The translations under genes and the position numbers were made by a program. From contig JAMCRV010000064.1 of assembly GCA_023381555.1 (NCBI GenBank), positions 1 to 44,536 on the forward strand: 44,536 nucleotides of DNA, read 5' to 3'. Every line of letters starts with the position of its first letter. The stretch's first letter is position 1. This DNA comes from Chloroflexota bacterium. Its GTDB lineage: Bacteria > Chloroflexota > UBA4733. The notes under the pieces are model-generated. The model had not been told where the DNA came from. It worked only from the letters and a program-made list of their open reading frames with translations, and did no database searches. Below are positions 32,362 to 44,536 of the stretch, piece by piece.

Positions 32362-32775
32362 TCAGGGTGCCAGCGTGAAGGCGGAAACGTGCCGGGGACG
32401 GAGCATGCGAAAGTGGCGCCGGTCCAACGTGAGGACGTGGCCGATGTGTAACCGTTCGGCTATTGCAACGATTGAAGCGTCGACAAGTCCGATTGGAGTA
32501 TCGGAATACGCTTCCATGAGCTCCAAACACCGCGCCAGATCAGCGTGGCCCAGCCCTTCCACCCGGAACTCGCCGGACACGACAGATCGCAAAAGCGCAG
32601 CGGCAACATGCGATCCCAGATGGGTGGAGATCAGATAGCCGGCTTCAGGGAGAACAGTGACGGGCAAGACCAGAAGGTCGGTGCTGGATTGCACGTACGA
32701 GCGCACACGGCCGTGCTCCACTGTTTTCACGTCGGCCAGAGCATAGAGTGCGCTGGTATCAACGAGAACCGGCAC
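32362..32775 (-). CDS. PIN-domain ribonuclease toxin (VapC-like)
   Basis: A 137-residue protein of the PIN family. The four acidic residues are visible: the first in MPVLVDTSALYALAD, Glu in PVTVLPEAGYL, and Asp residues in PIGLVDASIVAIAERL and VLTLDRRHFRML. VapC toxins cut specific RNAs such as tRNA or rRNA. The gene starts 5 bases after the antitoxin gene ends, in standard VapBC order. Confidence 0.85.
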   Translation of the reverse strand: MPVLVDTSALYALADVKTVEHGRVRSYVQSSTDLLVLPVTVLPEAGYLISTHLGSHVAAALLRSVVSGEFRVEGLGHADLARCLELMEAYSDTPIGLVDASIVAIAERLHIGHVLTLDRRHFRMLRPRHVSAFTLAP

Positions 32776-32780
32776 GGTGC

Positions 32781-33077
32781 TTACGACCGAGTGCCGGCGC
32801 CATCACGACGTACGGAGGCTCCAGGCGACCATCCCGCTACGGGATCGGCAGCAGCAGCCAGAATCTCCTCATCCCACCCGTCGGCGACGGAAAAACTTGG
32901 GCCGCTACTGCTACCCATGTCGATGAATTCCATTCGACGTGGAGGCCGATGTACTTCAAGATACTCGCGGAGTGCCGTCTCAACGAGTTTAGTGAAACTC
33001 GTCCCATTGCGCGCGGCAAACTGCTGCGCCTCCACGAGCAAGGCCTCATCCGCCAGAATTGTGGTTCGCTTGGTCAT
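32781..33077 (-). CDS. ribbon-helix-helix antitoxin (VapB-like)
   Basis: A protein of about 98 residues. The N-terminus MTKRTTILADEALLVEAQQF then GTSFTKLVETALREYLE is a ribbon-helix-helix DNA-binding domain. The C-terminal half is acidic and Gly/Ser-rich and should bind the toxin. GGAGGGA precedes the start. It should repress its own operon by binding the palindrome just upstream. Confidence 0.8.
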   Translation of the reverse strand: MTKRTTILADEALLVEAQQFAARNGTSFTKLVETALREYLEVHRPPRRMEFIDMGSSSGPSFSVADGWDEEILAAAADPVAGWSPGASVRRDGAGTRS

Positions 33078-33102
33078 TGCCACGGATCTCCCTCCTTGCT
33101 CG

Positions 33103-33127
33103 GTATGTATGCATATGTATAACATAC
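33103..33127 (-). promoter_or_regulatory. possible promoter/operator of the VapBC-like pair
   Basis: An AT-rich, imperfectly palindromic stretch whose ends are GTATGT and ACATAC, centred on a CATATG-like core, about 26-50 bases upstream of the antitoxin start. The minus strand includes a TTATAC -10-like box. RHH antitoxins usually bind such short palindromes over their own promoter. Confidence 0.35.
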
Positions 33128-33200: not shown

Positions 33201-33431
33201 TTACGCCATCACACCTACGCCCCAGCCGCTTACCGCTCCCCGCGAGGCACCTCGTCGACGTTGGTCGCGGATCTTGCGGATAGCATCCAGAATGCAGTCC
33301 ATGTCCGACTGGGGGCCGAGGAAGAGGCGGTGCGACAGCACCACGGCCTCGTCACGGTAGATACGTTCGGCCTGGGGGCAATGGACGGTCGCGTAGTCGA
33401 CCTCCTTAGCCTGCGACTGGGGTACCTCCAC
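33201..33431 (-). pseudogene. C-terminal stump of a DegT/DnrJ/EryC1-type aminotransferase
   Basis: The reading KEVDYATVHCPQAERIYRDE then LSHRLFLGPQSDMDCILDAI and a final basic tail matches the C-terminal about 60 residues of sugar-aminotransferase-family proteins. The PLP-binding core and the rest of the gene are absent. The upstream sequence, up to the dead IS, contains stops. It is a relic and cannot act as an enzyme. Confidence 0.6.
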
Positions 33432-33685
33432 TTTTGGGTGTCCAACATCGTCCTTCCCGTTGCCGCCGTCCTGGATGTGTGGCTCGCTTTTGCCTACCAG
33501 TCGGTGCTCAACAGCCCCTCGTTCACGGCGACGTCGCCGAAACCGGCAGGGTTCATTCGGACCCTCTCTCCCTACCCCTCTTTAAAAGGTAGATTTTCTG
33601 GAGAGCAAGGTGGGAGTGAAGGGGGAGCCCTCCAGCGGGGAAGCTGTAGATATGGAGATATCGCAGCGAGCGAAGGAGGGGTCCC

Positions 33686-34812
33686 ATGGCATGCCAGGAA
33701 GTAGTGTACCCGTGGACGCAAACGATCCGGCGCCAGTTCCCCGCGTTGAGCAGGCCGCAGGCGGCGGTGCTTGGGTTGTGGAGTCTGGGGATGGTGCTGG
33801 GGCGCAGTGGTGCGCTGACGGCGGTGACGGTGTTTTTGGCAGCCTGGCAAGGGCGAGCGGAGAACAGCGTGCGCCAGCAGTTGCGGGAATGGTGCTACCC
33901 GGCGGACAAGAAGCGCGGCAACCAGCGGCAGGCACGGGACGTCACCACCTGCTTTGCACCCTTGTTGCGCTGGGTGCTGGCCGGCTACACCGGGACGCCA
34001 CCAGCCTGGGCGAGCGCTTTGTCGTCTTGACGCTCAGCGTGGTCTATCGAGGCTGCGCTATCCCGGTCGCCTGGCACGTGTTGCCAGCGAACCAGCCCGA
34101 CGCCTGGCGACCCCACTGGTTGCGCTTGCTGCGCCTGGTGCGACCGGCCATTCCCACCCAGATGACCGTGATTGTGCTGGCCGGCCGTGGTCTCTATGTC
34201 CGCTGGCTGTTTTGTCGCATCCGGCGGCTCGGCTGGCATCCGTTCCTGCGCGTCAATGCCCAGGGCCGCTTCCGTCCTGCCTGCGCCCGCGCCGGTCGGC
34301 GGCTGTCCACGTTCGTGCCCCGGCCGGGGACGACCGGGCAGGGGTTGGGGGTGGCCTTCACCGGCAAACACCGTCGCCTCTCCTGCACCCTGCTGGCCTG
34401 CTGGTAGGCGGGCTGCAAGGATCCCTGGCTGATCCTGACCGACCTGCCACCCGAAGCAGCAGAGGTCGGTTGGTACGGCATGCGCGCCTGGATCGAGGTC
34501 ATGTTCCACGACGCCAAGCAATACCTCGGCCTGGAAGATTCCCCCGCCCAGGCTGCCCAAGCCGTCGAACGCACCGCCCCCATGGCCGCCCTCGTCCTGC
34601 TCTGGTACGCCGGCCGCTCCCAAGAGCAGCGTGGCGCACCTTGGCCCCTGCGTCCCTGGTATCGCCAGAAGACCACTTCCTCATTCCCTGATATGCTCGC
34701 CGCTGTGCGTCGGGAAAGTTGGCGCCTCTATTTATCTTCGCCGCCGTCGCCACAACGGCTCCCCAACAATTCCACCACCCCCTGGCCCGATGCCCTCCTC
34801 GCTACGGCATAA
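33686..34812 (+). mobile_element. inactivated IS4-type transposase (pseudogene)
   Basis: An insertion-sequence transposase in pieces. Part 1 runs from 33686 (MACQEVVYPWTQTIRRQF...) to about 33975; there the frame shifts into the second frame, which runs through RDATSLGERFVV to an in-frame TAG at 34405-34407. Past the stop the same frame continues to 34812 with WYGMRAWIEVMFHDAK, the exact IS4 Y-(2)-R-(3)-E-(6)-K signature. The second Asp is replaced by Gly (VIVLAGRGLY where VLADRGLY is usual). With a frameshift, an amber stop and a lost catalytic residue, the transposase is dead. I found no terminal inverted repeats. Confidence 0.8.
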
Positions 34813-34914: not shown

Positions 34915-36939
34915 TTACTCGACCATCGTCGGTACAATCGAATTGTTGCCCTCGTGCTCGTCGTCTGGGCTTTCTATCTGCGCGATCAACCTGGTGAGGC
35001 GGCCCGCCTCCGAGCTGCGATCCATGTATTCTTGATACGCCTGGTATGCCCGATTGATCAGTTCCTGGTACATGATCACTCGTGCATCGTAGGCACTCAA
35101 TGCCTTTTCGGAGGTGCTACGATCATCAAGTGTCTGCCAGTCGCTCAGTTCACGCCCCACGATGCATATGATCTCGATCGGTTCGGTTGGCCGCCCGTCA
35201 GCTACCAAGAGTTTGCGCAGCGCGCTCCGATACTTCATGACCTGGTCCTGAAGAATGGGAGTACTGAGCACCCTGTCAGCCTTCTTCAATTCGACAATGA
35301 TGTGCTTACCGGAAGCGGTGCGATACTTGATGTCCACGCGGCCAGCCCGCTCATCGTCGGATAGCCCGGCATCAATCTTCTCGAATTCGTTCTGCAGCCT
35401 GCTCTCCATGTACTCGGATGTGGCGGCGCGCTCCCAGGAAGGATCGAGCAGCCACAAATGGTCGAAAAGGTACTGCTGGATGGCCTTCTCCCTGGCGCTC
35501 TGCTCGACTTTCTCCCGAAGCGTCTTGATCACCTGGACCCTCTCCCTGACGATCTGGTGATATAGGGTAGCTTCGATGTCGTCCAGATTCGTGAATACCT
35601 GAGCGAGGGCTTGGAGGTTTTCCGTGGAGATCTGGTCGAGCGCGTCCAGATTCTCCTTATAGCGCAGGCTCTCGAACGCCAGAACCCCGTGAACGAACAA
35701 GCGACGCCGATCATCTTCCCGCTCCACGGCGATCTGGTTGATCCTGCCGAACAGCCGCTCCGCGCGCCGGCGAGTGTCCCCGTTCAATTCGTTCAACCAT
35801 TCTCTGATTGCGGGGAGCTCCTGCGCCTTCTCCGCTCCTTGGCGATTCCGTAGCTCGGTCCACCGACTTTCGATGTGCTTCAGTTCACGGTGGACGAGGG
35901 CCTTGAGTTCTTCGTAGCGCGGGTCATCTTCGATCACCCGCTGGCGGCTGGTGGTAGCGATGTCTTCCTGATCATCCACGTCCAAGAAGTTCGCATTGAT
36001 CTCACCCATGAGGTACTTCGTGTACATTCCGCCTTCCGAGAAGGCCTCCAGAATGTCCTCTTGAGCCAACTTCCCTCTGACAAGCACGGTGATCTTGTTC
36101 AGATTCTCATCAGCGTCCCGAAGAGAACCTGATTCCCCAACCGTGCCTATCCACCCGCTAATGTGATTGGGCGACCCGTCCAGACTATCCGGCCTGCACT
36201 CATTGTGCTCGAGCTTCGGGCACGCCTCGGCATACTGCTGACCGGTCTCCCCGTACCACCAGACGTACTGGAGTTTGCTGAAGTACTCCCTATCAGCCAA
36301 GGTGATCGGGGATCCATTGATGCGAACGTTGAAGTGATACTTCTTACCTATGATGCTAAACCGCCTGGCTAGGCGCTTGCGGAGCGCCGCCTCCGCCTGG
36401 TAGATCGCCTTCTTGAGCTCGGTCAGGACGACGCGAGTACCCCGCTCCAACTCTACGGTTTCCGCTGGCAACGGCTCCGGATAATAGGTGCCCTCACCCC
36501 CCGCTTTGATCTTCTCCTCGATGTCACCCAACACCATCCGGAATGCGCTCCGGTTGCCGTCCTTGGCGGTCTCTACCTCTATGACGCGAGCGACGGAGAA
36601 CAGTGACAGCTTGCCGATCCCTTTGCGCCCCATGACGGGTCGCTGCCATTTGGGGGTCACCGCCCCATCCTTCTGTGCACGTCTCTGGAAGCCGACGTTG
36701 AGGTACTTGTAGTTGACGTCGGCGTGGTCCATCCCGTGGCCGTCGTCCGTGATCTTGACCCAACCACCCTGTGGATCGAGATCGATGTCGACGTTCTCCG
36801 CGTCAGCGTCCCAGGAGTTCGCCACGACTTCGGCAAGCACCGCCGGAACGTTGCTGTAGAGATTGATGCCGAGGTGATTGAGGATGTTGAGGCTGAGAGT
36901 CAGCGAGTACGGGTGTGCAGGAGGCGCATCAGGCACCAT
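34915..36939 (-). CDS. GHKL ATPase (MutL/MORC/Hsp90-like) with C-terminal PD-(D/E)XK-like domain
   Basis: A 674-residue protein. The N-terminal GHKL ATPase shows AEVVANSWDADAENVDI (N box), ITDDGHGMDHAD (G1) and GRKGIGKLSLFSVA (G2). A long helical middle follows (about residues 330-500). Near the C-terminus, GRVDIKYRTASGKHIIVELK (about 533-552) followed by ILQDQVMKY has the D-(x)n-E-x-K layout of PD-(D/E)XK nucleases. GHKL ATPases beside DNA methylases are known in restriction-like systems, where they may sense DNA and license cutting. Its start overlaps the dcm-type stop by 11 bases, so the two are coupled. Confidence 0.8.
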   Translation of the reverse strand: MVPDAPPAHPYSLTLSLNILNHLGINLYSNVPAVLAEVVANSWDADAENVDIDLDPQGGWVKITDDGHGMDHADVNYKYLNVGFQRRAQKDGAVTPKWQRPVMGRKGIGKLSLFSVARVIEVETAKDGNRSAFRMVLGDIEEKIKAGGEGTYYPEPLPAETVELERGTRVVLTELKKAIYQAEAALRKRLARRFSIIGKKYHFNVRINGSPITLADREYFSKLQYVWWYGETGQQYAEACPKLEHNECRPDSLDGSPNHISGWIGTVGESGSLRDADENLNKITVLVRGKLAQEDILEAFSEGGMYTKYLMGEINANFLDVDDQEDIATTSRQRVIEDDPRYEELKALVHRELKHIESRWTELRNRQGAEKAQELPAIREWLNELNGDTRRRAERLFGRINQIAVEREDDRRRLFVHGVLAFESLRYKENLDALDQISTENLQALAQVFTNLDDIEATLYHQIVRERVQVIKTLREKVEQSAREKAIQQYLFDHLWLLDPSWERAATSEYMESRLQNEFEKIDAGLSDDERAGRVDIKYRTASGKHIIVELKKADRVLSTPILQDQVMKYRSALRKLLVADGRPTEPIEIICIVGRELSDWQTLDDRSTSEKALSAYDARVIMYQELINRAYQAYQEYMDRSSEAGRLTRLIAQIESPDDEHEGNNSIVPTMVE

Positions 36940-37972
36940 GCTGCTCCACGTGTCCTTTCAGCGACCTCGCCACTGCCCGGGCCAAGAGCACAGGCACAGC
37001 GTTTCCAATCAGACGCCCGACGCGTTTGAAGTGGACTTGTTCTTTCGGTGGCACGAACTCGTAGGTCGGTGGAAAGGTCTGGAGCAGCGCTCCCTCGCGG
37101 AGCGACAGACCGCGGTCCTGGTCGGGATGACCGAAGCGACCGTTGCCAAAACCGTAGAACTGGGTGGTGATCGTCGGTCCCGGCTTGCCCCATTCCATTC
37201 GTCCGTACACCGATGGATAGGTCTTGCCGGTCTTTGCCTTATGGCAGGCCGCAACCAAGTCGTCGTCCCAATCGCGCCATGTGCCTCCGGGCTGCGACTT
37301 TCGGATGCGCTTCAAGTTGATCCCGGCCAATCGGGATGCGACGTGCAGCCGATCGTGTGGATCGACGCCTCCGGCTGCTAGCGATGGCAGACGACCAATT
37401 ATATGCCTGACCGTCGGGCGGCTTTCCTCGCAATAGGTGGGAGCAATGAGCTCGACCGGACCGAATACCGAGGCGAACCCTACCAGCCTGGTCCGGGTTT
37501 GCGGGACGCCATAAAGGCGGCACTTCACCTCGAATTCGGTCCAGTGATACCCCCACTCCTTAAGCGTTTTCACCAATTCGGCATACGACGGGTGCTTTCG
37601 CAACTGGAGCACATTCTCGATCGTCGCCAGTTCCGGGCGCACGTGCTCGACGATCCGACGATAAGCATCGATCAGGTGCCACCGGTCTTCGTACACCGGC
37701 TTGCGGCCCCTCGAGTAGTTCGAGTAGGGCTGGCACGGCGCACAGCCAGCGATAGTCCGAATCACGCCTTTGGGGAACAGCCCTGCCACTTCGGCAGGGT
37801 CTAGCCCACTTACATCCTGCTCGACGAATGGGACTCCGTTATTGTGCTCATACGGGTACCGGCACGCCGGGTCAAGGTCGTAGCCCGCCAGAACGCGCAC
37901 TCCTTCATCGAGCAGGCCGCGGGTAAGCCCGCCCGCGCCGCAGAAGAGATCCACGGCGCAAAGAGACGTCAC
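36929..37972 (-). CDS. dcm: DNA cytosine-C5 methyltransferase
   Basis: A 347-residue enzyme that methylates C5 of cytosine in a specific DNA site. Motif I is DLFCGAGGLTRGLLDEG, the catalytic Cys is in GCAPCQPYSNYSR, then the Glu of motif VI (ATIENVLQL), QTRTRLVGF (motif VIII) and RLIGNAVPVLLARAV (motif X). The target-recognition region is between motifs VIII and IX and cannot be read for specificity. A GTG start at 37972 follows GGGAGA. A vsr gene is divergent, as expected for a C5 methylase that raises T:G mismatches. Confidence 0.95.
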   Translation of the reverse strand: MTSLCAVDLFCGAGGLTRGLLDEGVRVLAGYDLDPACRYPYEHNNGVPFVEQDVSGLDPAEVAGLFPKGVIRTIAGCAPCQPYSNYSRGRKPVYEDRWHLIDAYRRIVEHVRPELATIENVLQLRKHPSYAELVKTLKEWGYHWTEFEVKCRLYGVPQTRTRLVGFASVFGPVELIAPTYCEESRPTVRHIIGRLPSLAAGGVDPHDRLHVASRLAGINLKRIRKSQPGGTWRDWDDDLVAACHKAKTGKTYPSVYGRMEWGKPGPTITTQFYGFGNGRFGHPDQDRGLSLREGALLQTFPPTYEFVPPKEQVHFKRVGRLIGNAVPVLLARAVARSLKGHVEQHGA

Positions 37973-38000
37973 TTCGGTTCTCCCATCTAGAACTGTTAGG

Positions 38001-38006
38001 ATTATA
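38001..38006 (-). promoter_or_regulatory. -10 box of the dcm-GHKL operon
   Basis: On the minus strand the sequence TATAAT is a perfect consensus -10 box about 30 bases before the dcm start codon, in the 190-base divergent gap between dcm and vsr. No good -35 hexamer is seen, so the promoter may be activator-dependent or the -35 is degenerate. Confidence 0.45.
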
Positions 38007-38162
38007 CTGTGCGGTAGCCATCAGGTAGGGGAGGCGTAAGAGCGTGCCCCCGAATGTATCGCACTGGTCCACCCTTCGGAAGTTGACGAAGGCGGTAGGG
38101 AAGCCGATCGTGGCTGGTCGTCCAGACACAAGCGATTCGAAGGCGATCCAAGGGATAAAGGA

Positions 38163-38621
38163 GTGGTGTCGCTGAAAGCCGGGATTAGGCAGGAGCCGAG
38201 GCCCCTCGGTCACCGCCCTCTGAGCCGCTCGGAGCACATGGGCAGGGTGAAAAGCAAGAACTCCGTGGCCGAGCGTACGCTCCGCTCAGCGCTTCATGCA
38301 GAGGGACTTCGGTTCCGTCTCCACCGACGCATCGAAGGTGTGACGGTCGACGTCGTGTTCCCCGGACCGAAGGTCGGCATCTTCGTCGATGGCTGTTTCT
38401 GGCATGGTTGCCCGGAGCACGCGACGTTTCCCAAGTCGAACACGGACTATTGGCTGCCGAAATTGGCGGAGAACAAGGAGCGCGACAGACGGCAATCCGA
38501 CCATCTGCGCGCCGCAGGCTGGACAGTAATCCGGGTATGGGAACATGATTGCTCGCCACCCGCGACGGAAGTCCTAGCCGGCATCGTGAAGGCCTGCCGC
38601 ACGGGCGGTGACGATCGATGA
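38163..38621 (+). CDS. vsr: very short patch repair endonuclease
   Basis: A 152-residue Vsr nuclease, which nicks T:G mismatches arising from deamination of 5-methylcytosine at the partner methylase's site. SEHMGRVKSKNSVAERTLRS and VDVVFPGPKVGIFVDGCFWHGCPEH carry the catalytic Asp and zinc-binding Cys/His, with WTVIRVWEHD near the C-terminus. The GTG at 38163 gives a slightly long N-terminus; a start nearer the SEHMGRVK segment is possible. The stop overlaps the next gene's ATG as ATGA. Confidence 0.92.
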   Translation: MVSLKAGIRQEPRPLGHRPLSRSEHMGRVKSKNSVAERTLRSALHAEGLRFRLHRRIEGVTVDVVFPGPKVGIFVDGCFWHGCPEHATFPKSNTDYWLPKLAENKERDRRQSDHLRAAGWTVIRVWEHDCSPPATEVLAGIVKACRTGGDDR

Positions 38622-38938
38622 GCATCGCTCCCCCGGAGTCGAGCCAACTCGTCGAGGTCCGCAGACGACAATGGGTCGTTGCGGAGGTGCAGGCCTCCAC
38701 CCCGGGCGGAGCAGATGTCTCGCATCCGCAGCACTTTGTTACGCTCACATCCCTCGACGAGGATGCGCTGAACGAATCCCTGGCGGTGGTCTGGGAACTC
38801 GAGCCCGGTGCTCGGGTCCTCGAAACGGCCGGCCTTCCTACCATCGACGGATGGGACTCGTGCGAACGCCTCGAGGCGTTTCTGGACGCCGTTCGCTGGG
38901 GGGCTGCCACGAACGCCGACCGATCCCTGCTCCAGGCG
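38618..38938 (+). pseudogene. N-terminal fragment of a DrmD-like SNF2 helicase
   Basis: The first about 107 codons match, from memory, the N-terminus of DISARM-type SNF2 helicases (DrmD): QLVEVRRRQWVVAEVQ, LAVVWELEPGARVLETAGLP and ERLEAFLDAVRWGA. The match then stops at SLLQA, where the intact protein would continue into the helicase core with its ATP-binding loop. What follows is antisense of another gene. The start overlaps vsr (ATGA), so in the intact ancestor vsr and this helicase were in one operon. The fragment lacks all helicase motifs. Confidence 0.7.
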
Positions 38939-39657
38939 ACGACGAGGACCTGCCAGTCGAGCGGCGCCGGGTACAAGCGACCCCCAGGGGTCGAATGCCC
39001 CCCACAGCCGATTGATGATCTCGGCAAGATCATGGATCGTTCGTGCGGCATCCGGTGGCATTCTCAGGTGGTAGGTCGGGTGCGCAACGTGATTCCGAAT
39101 GCGCCGATACACCTCCTCGGTTCTCCTATTGCGCTGGCCGTGGAGCAAGCCCTCCTCCCTCGCCCACTTCAGGAGGTGGGCGAACGTCGCCCGGAACTCC
39201 AGCGGCTGCCCAGTCGAGCGGAGCTTTAGCTGCCACGCCGATTTCGCATAAGAGCCGCCACGAGTGACCGCTTGGAACACATCCTCGAAGGACTGCACGG
39301 TCATGGAGTCTTCGTCTCCCGTTTTCACGTTGACGAAGGAGATCATTCCGTCGAAGTAGGTCACAAACCGCTTCCGGAACGCCTGCTCCATGACTAACCA
39401 AGAGAGATCGTCAGCAACGGTGAACGCTTCGAGCGGGTGAGGATGCTCCACAGCTACGGCATCCTCACCCGCTCGAAGCTGTTTCGCGTGTCGTCGGGGA
39501 CATCGGGATGGAGGTCGCAGCTCGCAATCACTTCTTGCTAGAACTCGGCTGCATACTCCGGCTTGAGAATGCTGCCGGTGCTCAGTCCTAGCGGCGTGAA
39601 CTGAAGGGTTCGCTCGTCAGGAGTGATTAGATCAGCGAACGTCTTGATTGGTGCCAT
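38939..39657 (-). pseudogene. broken unrecognised protein with RN-x3-H (HEPN-like) motif
   Basis: A gene downstream of the UvrD helicase. It starts MAPIKTFADLITPDERTLQF at 39657, 18 bases after the helicase stop. Lesions: (1) amber TAG at 39538-39540 in place of a likely CAG; (2) a hairpin at 39426-39479 whose loop is inverted, with a lost base; (3) a shift in a run of six C at 38998-39003; (4) loss of the 3' end at the junction with the helicase fragment. The body, read through the lesions, holds EAFTVADDLSWLVMEQAF and ends RRIRNHVAHPT then IHDLAEIINRLWG; the RN-x3-H is typical of HEPN RNases. I do not recognise the family. Confidence 0.65.
39426..39479. repeat. perfect 21-bp inverted repeat with 12-nt loop inside the broken gene
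   Basis: The arms GCTTCGAGCGGGTGAGGATG plus C (39426-39446) and its exact reverse complement (39459-39479) enclose the loop TCCACAGCTACG. The minus-strand frame of the broken gene reads NSFERVRM and then meets a stop in the loop. With the loop flipped, it reads on as LHSYGILTR, so the loop is inverted relative to the ancestral gene. Confidence 0.85.
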
Positions 39658-39675
39658 TGTTCGCAGTGTCCCAAA

Positions 39676-41622
39676 TCACGATCCCACGAGGTACGAGTCC
39701 AACCAGTCGGGACCCGCAGACGGATGAAGAGCGCCCGTCCCCAACTCTCTGAGATATCTACTCGCGATCGTCGGGGCGGCTTTGATGTCGCCCACTTTCC
39801 GAATCTTGCTCTTCATAACCTGAACCCGCAGGCTCATGGCCAGTCCGAGTTCCATCTTGCTCGAATAGGTCAGCACCAACTGGGAAGAAGCACGGGTGAT
39901 CGCGACGTACAAGAGTCGTCGCTGTTCCTCGACCGCTGCCGCAATCTGCGCCTCGGTCGCGCGGTCAGGGGTCGGGAGCGTCGGGACGATCCCATCGACC
40001 ATTCCGACGACGTAGACCACCGGGCTCGTCAAACCCTTTGACTTGTGGAGGCTCATGATGCGCACGTATTCCGGGCTCGGCGGAACGTCAACCTGGGTGA
40101 TCCCCGTGATGAGTGCGTTAAGGAGTTCTCTCGGTGAAGTCGCTACCTCGACCGCCTTAAGCGCAAGTGCCCGAAGATCAGAAACGGCCTCGACGTTTCC
40201 TGGAAACAGGGAATCGACAAGAAGCGGCAGGTCGTCGAGCGGCAGTTTCTCGATGAACCCAAGGGCATGGTTGTACTGATCGAGAAAGGCTCGGCAGTTG
40301 ACCGGGAGCTTCGATCCAGCCCGTGCGGCTTCCAGCGCTTTCCTCTCCGTGATCCCGCTGGATCGGCAGTACTCCATGAGCTTCTGGTACGCAGGCGCCC
40401 GAGCGTTCTGGTCGCCATAGCCGAGGATGACCCGGAGGGAGACGGAGTCGTCCTTCACCGCGAGCCAGAGGAGCGCGAGGGCGCGCTGGGCGTCTGGCGT
40501 GCGGACCGCCTCTTCCGTGAAGAACGAGTGCGCTGCGACGTCAAGGGAAGTCAGAGCCTTCCGTATCGCTTCGCCAATCTTGTGGCGACCCGTCAGCACG
40601 AGGATGTCTCCCGGCTGGCGCCGTTCATTCTGGACATCCGAAACGATCGCGGCGACGACACCTTCGATTTCGTCATCCAGCTCCGGCCACTGAACGATCG
40701 CCACGTCACCGTCCGTGTCTGCGTGGAGACAGTCCAGCGCGGGCTTGTCCCGGCCCATGGCATGCGAGATAAGGGAGTTCGCCATCGAGAGGATGCGTCG
40801 GGGACATCGGCCACAGACGTTGATGACGTGACTCTCGACGTCTGCACGCTCCCAGAACTGCTGAATGCCTATGGGATTCGCATGGCGGAAGCCGTAGATC
40901 GACTGGTCATCATCCCCGGCGACGCAAAGCGCCGTCGAACCTGATTCAGCCAGAAGGTTCAGAAGATGCTGCTCCAAGAAGTTGAGGTCCTGGTATTCGT
41001 CCACGATGACGTGATCGAACGCTTGGAGGTCGTCGGCGAGGGGATTGTGCCTCAGGTAGTCGTACGCCAGCGGTACGACCTCGCCGATCAGCATGGCGTG
41101 ATGGTGGATCAGCCACTGGATGACCTGCGCCTCAAATGCCTTATCCGTCGAACCAACGGCGAGCCCAGGGTGGTCCTTTTTACCCCGTGCCCAGCCAGCT
41201 TCGAAGGCTTCGAGAAGGTCCCTCCGCTTGAAGATGTTGTCGAAGTCGCCTTCGAGATCACGGAGCATGAGATCGGCTTCGTGATTCATCAGCGGTCGTG
41301 GCGTCCGCCCGGTGATCGCGAGGACGGCGTCTCGTTGGAGCAGGCTGAAGCAGTACGAGTGGAGAGTCGTCGCTCGCACGTCGTCAGCGCCCTCGACGCC
41401 GAGTGCTGCCACCTTCCTACGCAGATCGTGAGCTGCCGTCCGAGTGAAGGACAGTAGAAGGATCCGCTCACCTGGCACACCTTCACTGAGAAGACGAACG
41501 ACCCGACGCATTAGGCCGTAACTCGTCTTGCCGGTGCCCGGGCCTGCTAGGACGCCGATCCGACGCTCAGTAGAGCCAGCGAATGCTCGATGAGGACCAG
41601 CGATACCGTCGTCCCAGATCAC
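39676..41622 (-). CDS. UvrD/Rep-family superfamily 1 DNA helicase
   Basis: A 648-residue helicase. Walker A is VLAGPGTGKTSYGLM, motif II is VDEYQDLN, motif III is GDDDQSIYGFR, motif V is IMSLHKSKGLTSPV and motif VI is LLYVAITRA. The GTG at 41622 is preferred; it overlaps the Res stop as GTGA, showing coupling, and removes about 49 junk residues. In defence islands, such helicases often work with a nuclease partner. It has no nuclease domain itself. Confidence 0.9.
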   Translation of the reverse strand: MIWDDGIAGPHRAFAGSTERRIGVLAGPGTGKTSYGLMRRVVRLLSEGVPGERILLLSFTRTAAHDLRRKVAALGVEGADDVRATTLHSYCFSLLQRDAVLAITGRTPRPLMNHEADLMLRDLEGDFDNIFKRRDLLEAFEAGWARGKKDHPGLAVGSTDKAFEAQVIQWLIHHHAMLIGEVVPLAYDYLRHNPLADDLQAFDHVIVDEYQDLNFLEQHLLNLLAESGSTALCVAGDDDQSIYGFRHANPIGIQQFWERADVESHVINVCGRCPRRILSMANSLISHAMGRDKPALDCLHADTDGDVAIVQWPELDDEIEGVVAAIVSDVQNERRQPGDILVLTGRHKIGEAIRKALTSLDVAAHSFFTEEAVRTPDAQRALALLWLAVKDDSVSLRVILGYGDQNARAPAYQKLMEYCRSSGITERKALEAARAGSKLPVNCRAFLDQYNHALGFIEKLPLDDLPLLVDSLFPGNVEAVSDLRALALKAVEVATSPRELLNALITGITQVDVPPSPEYVRIMSLHKSKGLTSPVVYVVGMVDGIVPTLPTPDRATEAQIAAAVEEQRRLLYVAITRASSQLVLTYSSKMELGLAMSLRVQVMKSKIRKVGDIKAAPTIASRYLRELGTGALHPSAGPDWLDSYLVGS

Positions 41623-44216
41623 GTCTCGGCACCGTCGAGCGTCAGCCGGACTCCGCCGAACATGACGACGGCGTCGCTCCACACCGTCGGTTGCAGCTTG
41701 CCGAACTCGGCTTGCGGTACCTTCACGTACGCCCACGTAACGTCGGTCAGCAAGGTCGCATTCTCGCACCAGATCGTCGCCGCTCGGTCTTTATGCGCAA
41801 CGTCGATATTCTCCTGCCCCTTCGTCTCGATGACATAGTGGACGCCGTCCAGATCGACGGCGACGAAGTCGGGCTCGTAGTACCGGAGGTTCGTGGCGCT
41901 GTCCGCGTACTCGATCGTGAACCCGAATCGCCGTGGCAGCTTGGCGAACGACCTGATGTCGGTCGCGTCCTGGAGGTAGTGTGCGAACTCCCGCTCGAAG
42001 TCGTTGTCCGCAGCGACGAGATTGAAGACCGTCTTGCTCGCCTCGAACGTCGGGCGAGAGAACGGGAACGGCTCCGTCTCTGACAACGGACGACCCGCGT
42101 GCTCCAGTTGAGGAGACAGCTCCTCGACGACGAGCGCCCGCAGGATTGTGGCAAAGGTCTTGACCGTAAGGTACTGGGCGACACTCGTCGCGATCGCCCG
42201 GATGATCGTCTTATCTGCGAGATCGACGGTTTCACCGAATGCCCGGTCCCGGAGGAACTGGCGCACCTTCGGCACGAGATTCGCGAACTGCGCAGGCAGC
42301 TTCACATCCTGCGCGATCCGCTTGGCGTAGTAGGAGATGACCTCCTCCGCCGTCTGGGGCTCCGGGATCGTGTACTCCCGCTCCACGAGCTTCTGGAGGC
42401 TGATGATGTCGTACCCCTCGAAGTGAAACTGGCTCGCCGCCAGGTCGTCCTCCTTCTTCGGGAGCTTCGGGCACGTGAGCTTCGCAACGTCGATGGCGGC
42501 GATCTCCTCGGCAAGCGTCTTCTTCCGTGCGAGGATCGGACTGAGGACCGGAACCGTGATGTCTTGCGCCATCTTCTCCGGGTCCGGGGCGATGGTCGTG
42601 ATGACCACCGGGTCCTTGAGGTCGAAGGTGTCGAGGGTGATATCCTCGTCCTTCTCCAACTGCTCAACGAACTTCAGGAACGCCGGGTTTCCGATGACGT
42701 CCACTCGCTCGACATAGGACGACTGGCGCGCTCCAAACATGAGACGAAGCCCTCGCCCGATCGTCTGCTCGGGAAGGATGTTTGCCTTCGCCGTGTACGG
42801 GCGAAGGCCGACGATGACCGTGACGTTTTGCACGTCCCAGCCTTCCCGGAGCATCAACACGCTCACAATGGCGTTGACCGGGCTGTCGCCCTCGTCCACC
42901 CGCCGGGCCACGTTCCGTGCGGCGTCGAGGTCCTTCTTCGAGACGTCCCCGCTCCGGTCCGTATGGATCACGAGGAGTTGTGCATCCCCATTGTCGGTCG
43001 CTCCGAACTCCGCTGGGTACTTGACCCGCAGGTAGTCCCCGACGTCGTCGGCTTCAGCCGTGCTGTTGAGCATGATGAATAGCACCGGCTTCTTCGCGAG
43101 CGGCTTGAGCTGCTCCCGGTACTCACGCCAACGCTCGACGCCTGCCGTGATGTACCCCTGGTACTTCACGCTCGCTACGTCCGACCGGGCCTCGTCGAGC
43201 CCTGCCGTGATCCCCTTCATGGGGCGCTTCACGACGTTGTCGATGATCGCCTGCTTGAGCGGGTAGTCGTACACCGTCCAGGTGAACAGGCCGCCCTTCT
43301 GGTATCGGGGCGTCGCCGAGAAGTCGAGCTGGCCGAGGAGTCCATCGGCGCTGTCGCTGTGGATGCGCTGGATGATCCGATTCCACTCGCTCTCCTCGTC
43401 GTGGACGTGATGGCCCTCGTCGTTGATGACGAGGCACCGACCCTCCCGGCGAGCGATGCGTTCGTCGAAGTCCTCAATGGTCGTCGTGGACGTCGGAGGG
43501 ACCGGGCCAAGCACGTCGGTCATCTCATCCGGCTCATCCGACTCCCCGGCCGAGCGGCGCTCGTAGAACTGCTGGACGTTCGTCAGGTAGAGCGCGCCCT
43601 GCGAGCTGGCCCGTTCGGGGTCACCGCGCATGTAGAAGTCCATCTCCCAGAAGATGCGAAGCTCCGGTGGGATGATCGGGTCGGTGCGGAATACCCGACC
43701 GCCTCCGAAGTCCGAGCGCAGCCGCTCGAACACGATCACGTTCGGGGCCACGACGAGGAACGTCTTGGCGAAGTCGTCCCGTCCCTCAGCGACAGCATTG
43801 AAGTACTGCCACGCGATCGTAAGCGCCATGACTTTCGTTTTCCCGCTCCCAGTCGCCATCTTGACCGCGTACCGGGCGAAGTCGTCGTACTGGAGGACGT
43901 GGACGCCGGGAACCTTGGCGAACCGCTCGACAAGGTCTCGGTGGCGTCGTACCTTCTCGACCTCGTACAGCCAGGCGAGCGTCTCCAGCGCTTCACGCTG
44001 CGAGTAATAGAACTGGAAGAGCCCGCCCCCCGGCGTCCGGTGGTCCGTGACGAACCAGTAGTTGAACAGTGCCTTCGTCGTGTCGCTCGCGCCCTTGTAC
44101 TTCGCCTGCCGCCACTCCTTGACGGCCTTGCGAATCTCCGGCACGCACGGCGCTGTCGTCACCCGAGCCTGGAGGAGGTCGAGTTGGTCTCCCTGCGATT
44201 GACGCTTCCTAGGCAC
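41619..44216 (-). CDS. type III restriction-like Res subunit (SF2 helicase with PD-(D/E)XK nuclease)
   Basis: An 865-residue protein. The helicase core has MATGSGKTKVMALTIAW (motif I, about residue 120), a motif II reading INDEGHHVHDE, DFSATPRY (motif III) and QTIGRGLRLM (motif VI). The C-terminal part has RYYEPDFVAVDL then HYVIETKGQ (about residues 800-822), the PD-(D/E)XK active site. This matches Res of type III restriction systems; its partner is the modification methylase just upstream, with which it overlaps by 8 bases. A GTG at 44216 is the start. Confidence 0.9.
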   Translation of the reverse strand: MPRKRQSQGDQLDLLQARVTTAPCVPEIRKAVKEWRQAKYKGASDTTKALFNYWFVTDHRTPGGGLFQFYYSQREALETLAWLYEVEKVRRHRDLVERFAKVPGVHVLQYDDFARYAVKMATGSGKTKVMALTIAWQYFNAVAEGRDDFAKTFLVVAPNVIVFERLRSDFGGGRVFRTDPIIPPELRIFWEMDFYMRGDPERASSQGALYLTNVQQFYERRSAGESDEPDEMTDVLGPVPPTSTTTIEDFDERIARREGRCLVINDEGHHVHDEESEWNRIIQRIHSDSADGLLGQLDFSATPRYQKGGLFTWTVYDYPLKQAIIDNVVKRPMKGITAGLDEARSDVASVKYQGYITAGVERWREYREQLKPLAKKPVLFIMLNSTAEADDVGDYLRVKYPAEFGATDNGDAQLLVIHTDRSGDVSKKDLDAARNVARRVDEGDSPVNAIVSVLMLREGWDVQNVTVIVGLRPYTAKANILPEQTIGRGLRLMFGARQSSYVERVDVIGNPAFLKFVEQLEKDEDITLDTFDLKDPVVITTIAPDPEKMAQDITVPVLSPILARKKTLAEEIAAIDVAKLTCPKLPKKEDDLAASQFHFEGYDIISLQKLVEREYTIPEPQTAEEVISYYAKRIAQDVKLPAQFANLVPKVRQFLRDRAFGETVDLADKTIIRAIATSVAQYLTVKTFATILRALVVEELSPQLEHAGRPLSETEPFPFSRPTFEASKTVFNLVAADNDFEREFAHYLQDATDIRSFAKLPRRFGFTIEYADSATNLRYYEPDFVAVDLDGVHYVIETKGQENIDVAHKDRAATIWCENATLLTDVTWAYVKVPQAEFGKLQPTVWSDAVVMFGGVRLTLDGAET

Positions 44217-44536
44217 GGCCGCTGACCTTGAGCTGGATGACCTTCGTCGTGTCGTTGCCGAGGATGTCGATGACCTTCACAACGACCGTGTACTCGCCTG
44301 GCTCGGCATACTCGTGTTCTACGGCGAGCGCGAGCTTGTTCGACCGCCTCGTCCGGTACGACTGCCACTCGTTGTGGAAGGTGTCGCCCTTGTTGTCCCA
44401 GTCCACTGCCCAGTAGTCGATCCACTGCGACCAGTGGGTCACTACCTTCTGAATGTCCGCAGGGACGTCGTCGAGCGGGATGACAAAATCCTCAAGCGTG
44501 AGCGCGACCTTCCGGCCCGTCTGCTTCTTGCTCACC
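44209..44536 (-). CDS. C-terminal end of a modification DNA methyltransferase (type III Mod-like), cut by the window edge
   Basis: Only the last about 109 residues are visible; the gene continues past the window end. The sequence has FVIPLDDVPADIQKVVTHWS, YWAVDWDNKGDTFHNEWQSY and YTVVVKVIDILGNDTTKVIQ, a tail that I associate with adenine-specific methylases paired with Res-like genes. No catalytic motif is in view, so the assignment rests on the tail and on the adjacent res gene. Confidence 0.65.
   Translation of the reverse strand, partial: VSKKQTGRKVALTLEDFVIPLDDVPADIQKVVTHWSQWIDYWAVDWDNKGDTFHNEWQSYRTRRSNKLALAVEHEYAEPGEYTVVVKVIDILGNDTTKVIQLKVSGRA

Follow-up and report, generated by a model that had tools for sequence, protein, structure and literature searches.

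Two anti-phage gene sets joined in a probably accreted and partly decayed defence island of a Chloroflexota bacterium

The window analysed here, 44,536 bp long, is an entire contig (C26) of a metagenome-assembled genome (MAG) of a Chloroflexota bacterium, and its right end holds two groups of genes. They are two unrelated anti-phage gene sets spliced end to end: a type II restriction system with a stump of a DISARM helicase gene (set A), and a type III-like methylase-restriction pair, Mod and Res, with a borrowed UvrD-like helicase, followed by a broken gene that we call X (set B). We consider it probable (about 75%) that this island was built by accretion and has partly decayed, with a Mod-Res pair that carries an exchangeable add-on, UvrD having replaced a SIR2 gene in that position, X being dead and the DISARM operon lost. 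A preliminary description, made from the sequence alone, had recognised a composite defence island of two sets, and the gene content bears this out. It had also proposed that Mod, Res, UvrD and X form a functional unit, possibly an undescribed variant of restriction system, and this proposal fails on the distribution of the genes.

Neither UvrD nor X stands beside Res in any of the 35 related Res loci outside the window. These loci comprise 27 found in a scan of 84,980 species genomes (57-88% identity; Actinomycetota, Chloroflexota, Acidobacteriota, Armatimonadota and Bacteroidota), two plasmid loci (34% identity) and further Chloroflexota loci. A scan of 301 genomes of the phylum for UvrD and X together found no genome with relatives of both besides the window's own, and viral contigs scanned with UvrD, X and Res gave no matches. 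Res, UvrD and X thus do not recur together, an outcome for which the preliminary description had itself foreseen that the row would be a chance assembly. The four-gene row is therefore rejected as a recurring unit and read as a local assembly. As far as can be seen, the window's own combination of genes is a one-off patchwork. The coupling of the row by overlapping stops and starts also holds in part only: Mod and Res overlap by 8 bp and Res and UvrD by 4 bp, but UvrD and X do not overlap, with 18 nt between them.

The Mod-Res core is a type III-like subfamily that lies below the cut-off of the BPTD_3080 family. Res (41619..44216, minus strand) combines a superfamily 2 (SF2) helicase with a C-terminal PD-ExK endonuclease (PF04851, PF19778), and its motifs GSGKT, DEGHH, IGRGLR and PDF...ETKG are intact. 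It reaches 285.2 bits against NF046055, the BPTD_3080 family model, the threshold of which is 800, and it has no sequence match among solved structures. Mod (44209..44536, minus strand) is present, as the preliminary description had it, but of this type III-like DNA methylase only the final 108 codons are on the contig, which ends inside the gene. This PKD-like tail matches the C-terminus of PADLOC MTase_III (4.6e-12) and is 81% identical in the related locus L006; the full-length Mod of locus L007 matches N6_N4_Mtase at 2.9e-32 and has a DPPF motif. Mod lies upstream of Res in 27 of the 35 related loci, and four of the other eight have less than 320 bp of upstream sequence. The features by which type III restriction-modification (RM) systems are recognised are present, namely an N6/N4 Mod directly before Res (full-length in L007 and others) and a Res with an SF2 helicase and a PD-ExK nuclease. 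Type III RM systems require two head-to-head sites and cleave 25-27 bp away. As in systems of the EcoP1I/EcoP15I type and the BPTD_3080 family, a Mod with an N-terminal DPPF motif and an N6_N4_Mtase domain overlaps an SF2/PD-ExK Res of the RE_endonuc type. The differences are the score of Res below the BPTD_3080 equivalog cut-off, the PKD-like tail of Mod and the variable gene behind Res.

This exchangeable gene behind Res is the new and testable point of our analysis, a modest novelty beside set A, which is known. In the nearest relatives the gene directly behind Res usually overlaps it by 4 bp. It is a SIR2 gene with an ATGA overlap in L005, L007 and L028, where the L005 and L028 copies are 91% and 78% identical to that of L007, and the latter matches PADLOC PDC-S65 at 421 bits; L008 keeps a decayed SIR2 start in the same place. 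The third gene of L006 (3246-4262) may encode a class III nucleotide cyclase, a weak assignment made from the motifs FLDIRSFS, FKPTGDG and DYTGRCLNLAARL (PF00211 E = 0.27, below all library thresholds), and its single-sequence structure model, with a predicted local distance difference test score (pLDDT) of 34, is too poor to use. A seventh near relative, L027, holds a Res remnant only. Among more distant relatives, TIR genes stand behind Res in L010 and L012 and a PNPOx-like gene in L011, and most loci carry nothing there. In the Res tree the window forms one clade with L005, L006, L007, L008 and L028 (100/100) and sits next to the SIR2-bearing L028 (99/94), so that the simplest course of events is a replacement of SIR2 by UvrD. 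The window UvrD thus probably occupies a place that SIR2 held earlier, independent gains being the other possibility. In the open-access literature, several hits in which were judged by title and abstract, we found no work joining type III Mod-Res pairs with SIR2, TIR, UvrD or HEPN genes.

The Mod-Res operons vary ahead of Res as well. In L007 (767-3209) three overlapping genes (288, 268 and 258 aa, the second with a helix-turn-helix domain), two of them without Pfam match, directly precede Mod, and the same group precedes the Mod/Res remnant of L027 (7566-9930). They are possibly further parts of the Mod-Res operon, which in the window would lie beyond the contig end. In L013, L014, L015, L018, L021 and L025, the space separating Mod from Res, or the place immediately ahead of Res, holds extra genes that vary by locus. 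They include a family of 175-178 aa that Pfam does not match, an ORF6N gene (PDC-S05) and a DUF3800-like gene, among others, and look like a second exchangeable position within this operon.

As for the helicase that occupies the third position in the window, UvrD (39676..41622, minus strand) is a UvrD/PcrA-like superfamily 1 (SF1) protein (PF00580 at 4.3e-35, PF13361 at 1.6e-22), and its GTG start overlaps the Res stop within the sequence GTGA. The motifs GPGTGKT, DEYQD, DDDQSIY and VAITR are intact, and the protein matches the PcrA structure 1pjr (2.7e-31). Its nearest PADLOC match is GajB of the Gabija system (171 bits); unlike in Gabija, no nuclease of the GajA type (ATPase-TOPRIM) stands beside it, its neighbours Res and X having no GajA match, and its overall similarity is that of SF1A helicases generally, such as PcrA and UvrD. 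Within the 301 genomes of the phylum, one other genome (G136) has a close relative, 40% identical, which stands behind a NOV_C gene. Further relatives are found in G514 (60% identical, standing alone), in G558 (51%, facing a type IIG enzyme) and at the start of contig C663 of G301 (81%, with no X behind it). As far as the contigs reach, no Res of the window family stands beside the relatives in G514, G558 and G136. Since the related SIR2 genes of the PDC-S65 type were alone on plasmids in all four cases viewed, in contrast to SIR2 behind Res, whose start overlaps the Res stop, and since relatives of UvrD are either solitary or accompanied by a NOV_C or RM gene, the add-ons look like captured free-living single-gene defences. 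A separate observation concerns the G136 locus (L046; G136:C529, 2101-4878), where the NOV_C (NO VEIN C-terminal, nuclease-like) gene lies directly before UvrD and the two may form a helicase-nuclease defence pair.

X (38929..39657, minus strand) is a broken member of a family of about 434 aa with a HEPN-type RNxxAH motif, as established from its relatives (L040-L043), the family alignment and frame analysis. The decay of X, already noted in the preliminary description, is confirmed: there is an in-frame TAG (39540-39538), a frame change at an inverted repeat and a further one near 39,000, and the 3' half of the gene is lost. Only the first ~239 family positions are kept, homology ending at about 38,929 with the C-terminal half missing, and the rest of X was not found in the bin, which is incomplete. 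The inverted repeat at the frame change (39426..39479) is perfect, with two 21-bp arms (39426-39446 and 39459-39479) around a 12-nt loop. Its plus-strand stretch, read by eye as ERVRMLHSYGIL, resembles the sense sequence of an X relative, DRIRLFHSYGVL; the loop seems to be inverted and one arm to be a copy of the other, as would result from a template-switch mutation at a near-palindrome. The likeness of X to HEPN proteins, suggested earlier, stands at the level of the motif, RN(H/R)xAH being conserved in all five aligned family members in agreement with the HEPN pattern Rx4-6H, but X has no HEPN match in Pfam or PADLOC and no structure hit. A single-sequence structure model of the X piece has a mean pLDDT of 52, too poor for a fold search.

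Relatives of X occur in three other genomes among the 301 of the phylum, and X was not found in the tested genomes that hold UvrD or near Res relatives. In L040-L043 no UvrD is beside X, and X never adjoins Res; with no X behind UvrD in L049, L052 and L053 either, UvrD-X as a two-gene module is rejected. Most likely, X was captured as an RNase-like (HEPN-motif) gene and is dead in the window, and the earlier hint that the unit may work without it is supported. On contig C6 of G078 (L040, L078), an intact X relative lies directly behind an ApeA-like HEPN gene; a DISARM-type operon, with drmD as its first gene, is found about 7 kb away.

Set A begins with a type II restriction enzyme of the BbrUII/HgiDII family (34915..36939, minus strand), with a GHKL ATPase domain (HATPase_c_3) and a PD-(D/E)xK-like C-terminal region. 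It scores 812.7 bits against NF050001, for which the family cut-off is 550, and its GHKL motifs NSWDAD, DDGHGM and GRKGIGK are intact. The C5-cytosine DNA methylase of the system (36929..37972, minus strand; PF00145 at 6.6e-41, PADLOC DrmMII/MTase_II) has intact catalytic motifs (FCGAGG, PCQP, ENV), and its gene overlaps the restriction gene by 11 bp, which confirms the coupling of a Dcm-like methylase with a GHKL nuclease. M.HgiDII recognises GTCGAC (PMC5867850), and by homology the set A system likely has the same target. Divergent from the methylase gene is that of Vsr, the very-short-patch mismatch endonuclease (38163..38621, plus strand; TIGR00632 at 125.5 bits, cut-off 97.85; PF03852). 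Its stop overlaps the start of drmD (38618, plus strand) by 4 bp, so the described coupling with a DrmD-like helicase exists, but the helicase is a stump of about 107 codons. Iyer et al. (2008, PMC2292703) described operons in which GHKL proteins ('paraMORC' RM) are combined with methylases, Vsr and SNF2 helicases, and set A as a new system is rejected in favour of the known HgiDII family. These systems have a C5 methylase gene that overlaps the gene of a GHKL-ATPase restriction enzyme, and genes for Vsr and an SNF2 helicase lie close by; nothing essential differs in the window except that the SNF2 helicase is reduced to the drmD stump.

The stump (38618..38938, plus strand) belongs to the SNF2 helicase of class 1 DISARM (NF038317 at 1.9e-32, profile positions 2-102 of 1021). 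Homology ends after about 107 of the ~1030-1070 residues of DrmD, at '...NADRSLLQA', and the stump is 59% identical to the Deinococcus protein up to about 'LLQA'; the rest of the gene was not found in the incomplete genome bin. The Deinococcus plasmid p96k has the same restriction enzyme, methylase and Vsr bordering a complete class 1 DISARM, so that the 'helicase' of the window is best read as a remnant of a lost DISARM, and set A as the probable edge of such an operon. Of the class 1 order drmD-drmMI-drmA-drmB-drmC, the contig has the first ~107 codons of drmD, and neither a full-length drmD nor drmMI, drmA, drmB or drmC. On the other flank of set A lie a pair of genes for a PIN-domain toxin and a VapB-like antitoxin (32362-33125) and, between this pair and set A, overlapping open reading frames without Pfam match that look like the broken remains of a transposase gene or of another gene from a mobile element (33261-34812).

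Where the two sets meet (38929..38938), the 3' ends of drmD (plus strand) and X (minus strand) are both lost, as judged by blastp and tblastn end points, and no more than about 10 bp belong to both homologies. As both genes are cut at one point, the simplest reading of this place is a deletion or rearrangement junction, an assembly join being less likely. Comparison with relatives of the window genome gave no match spanning the junction. The contig might also be a metagenome chimera, in which an assembler joined sets from different organisms near 38,935; the cut of two genes at one point would be expected of such a join, and the source is an incomplete bin (1.64 Mb, 129 contigs, 67% complete, in a class represented by three genomes). 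We regard this as improbable, as the G+C content is fairly even over the join (0.67 / 0.60 / 0.59 per 500 bp), the shared homology is below usual assembly k-mers, and the decay of X starts well away from the join, as expected of a dying island. Least probable of all the alternatives is that set A belongs to a system resembling class 2 DISARM, its methylase then being DrmMII. The best PADLOC model for the methylase is indeed DrmMII (286 bits, against 248.5 for MTase_II), with a drmD stump nearby, but the methylase gene overlaps that of an HgiDII-family enzyme scoring far above the family cut-off, and where plasmids of Halobaculum and Rhizobium carry the same two genes, the annotation shows no DISARM gene within 7 kb of them. 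Moreover, drmD belongs to class 1, and the methylase gene of the Deinococcus operon is MmeI-like.

Two other explanations give set B more coherence than our patchwork does. A genuine, very rare four-gene system, in which Mod and Res recognise and cut, UvrD processes the DNA and a HEPN-type X, decayed in the window, cleaves RNA to kill the cell when restriction has failed, would account for the common strand, the short distances between Res, UvrD and X, the intact UvrD and the motif in X. It is very unlikely, since no related locus has UvrD or X behind Res, X relatives sit elsewhere, one of them beside the ApeA-like gene near DISARM, the 81% identical UvrD of G301 has no X behind it, and X is absent from the tested genomes with UvrD or near Res relatives. 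A three-gene version deserves more credit, though it remains doubtful: UvrD would be a standing but rare partner of the Mod-Res clade, with a task dedicated to Res, and lineages would have either it or SIR2. UvrD lies exactly in the SIR2 position with a 4-bp overlap, and the bin with the 81% identical UvrD also contains a Mod-Res-SIR2 locus. On the other hand, the pairing was seen at one locus, and the relatives in G514, G558 and G136 have no adjacent Res of the window family on the sequence available. Several points nevertheless weigh against the accretion that we favour. The GTGA overlap looks like selection for co-expression, UvrD is intact, and the pairing may exceed chance. The 81% identical UvrD shares its bin with the Mod-Res-SIR2 locus L005, and as its upstream side is cut off by the contig end, a second Mod-Res-UvrD locus is possible there. 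Furthermore, UvrD relatives were thinly sampled, the scans of the phylum and of the class having scored no more than four candidates per genome, and several of the compared loci are short MAG contigs.

If accretion is accepted, one module of the island is a restriction system of the HgiDII/BbrUII type, together with Vsr as a repair nuclease, which once bordered a DISARM class 1 operon, and the other is a Mod-Res pair whose activities we infer from family knowledge: Mod would methylate and protect host DNA, and Res, an SF2 translocase with a PD-ExK nuclease, would cut unmethylated incoming DNA. The third gene, usually SIR2 in the clade of the window, is probably translated together with Res. 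Defence proteins of the SIR2 and TIR kinds destroy nicotinamide adenine dinucleotide (NAD), and behind Res they might provide a suicide back-up by that activity. UvrD, most likely co-expressed with Res, may unwind the ends or nicks made by Res for host exonucleases, or it may be an independent, Gabija-like helicase defence. X would have been an RNase-type effector.

It is tempting to go further and regard this Mod-Res subfamily as a sensor-restriction core with an interchangeable effector, a SIR2 or TIR protein acting by NAD depletion, a nucleotide-cyclase-like protein or UvrD, which would be triggered when Res engages foreign DNA. This would amount to a type III system into which an abortive-infection arm can be plugged, an idea that we put forward tentatively and hold to be rather unlikely. 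The suicide nuclease PrrC, which stands beside a type I system, is a precedent for an RM system with a linked suicide nuclease, and the notion of restriction backed up by a neighbouring toxic effector is common to both. The present loci differ from PrrC-type systems in that the effector families vary by locus and their link to restriction is putative.

For the window itself, the value of the analysis is corrective: the four genes taken for one system are a local patchwork, and both 'X' and the 'DrmD helicase' of the window turn out to be stumps. For the Mod-Res family, the closely related loci, with Res 85-89% identical, are a natural experiment on the role of the third gene. If the place behind Res is a true effector position, type III-like restriction would join systems such as the long-B Argonautes, which pair one recognition core with exchangeable killing arms (PMC10620215). 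If it reflects only the capture of neighbours by a restriction operon, it would still show how fast defence islands re-assemble.

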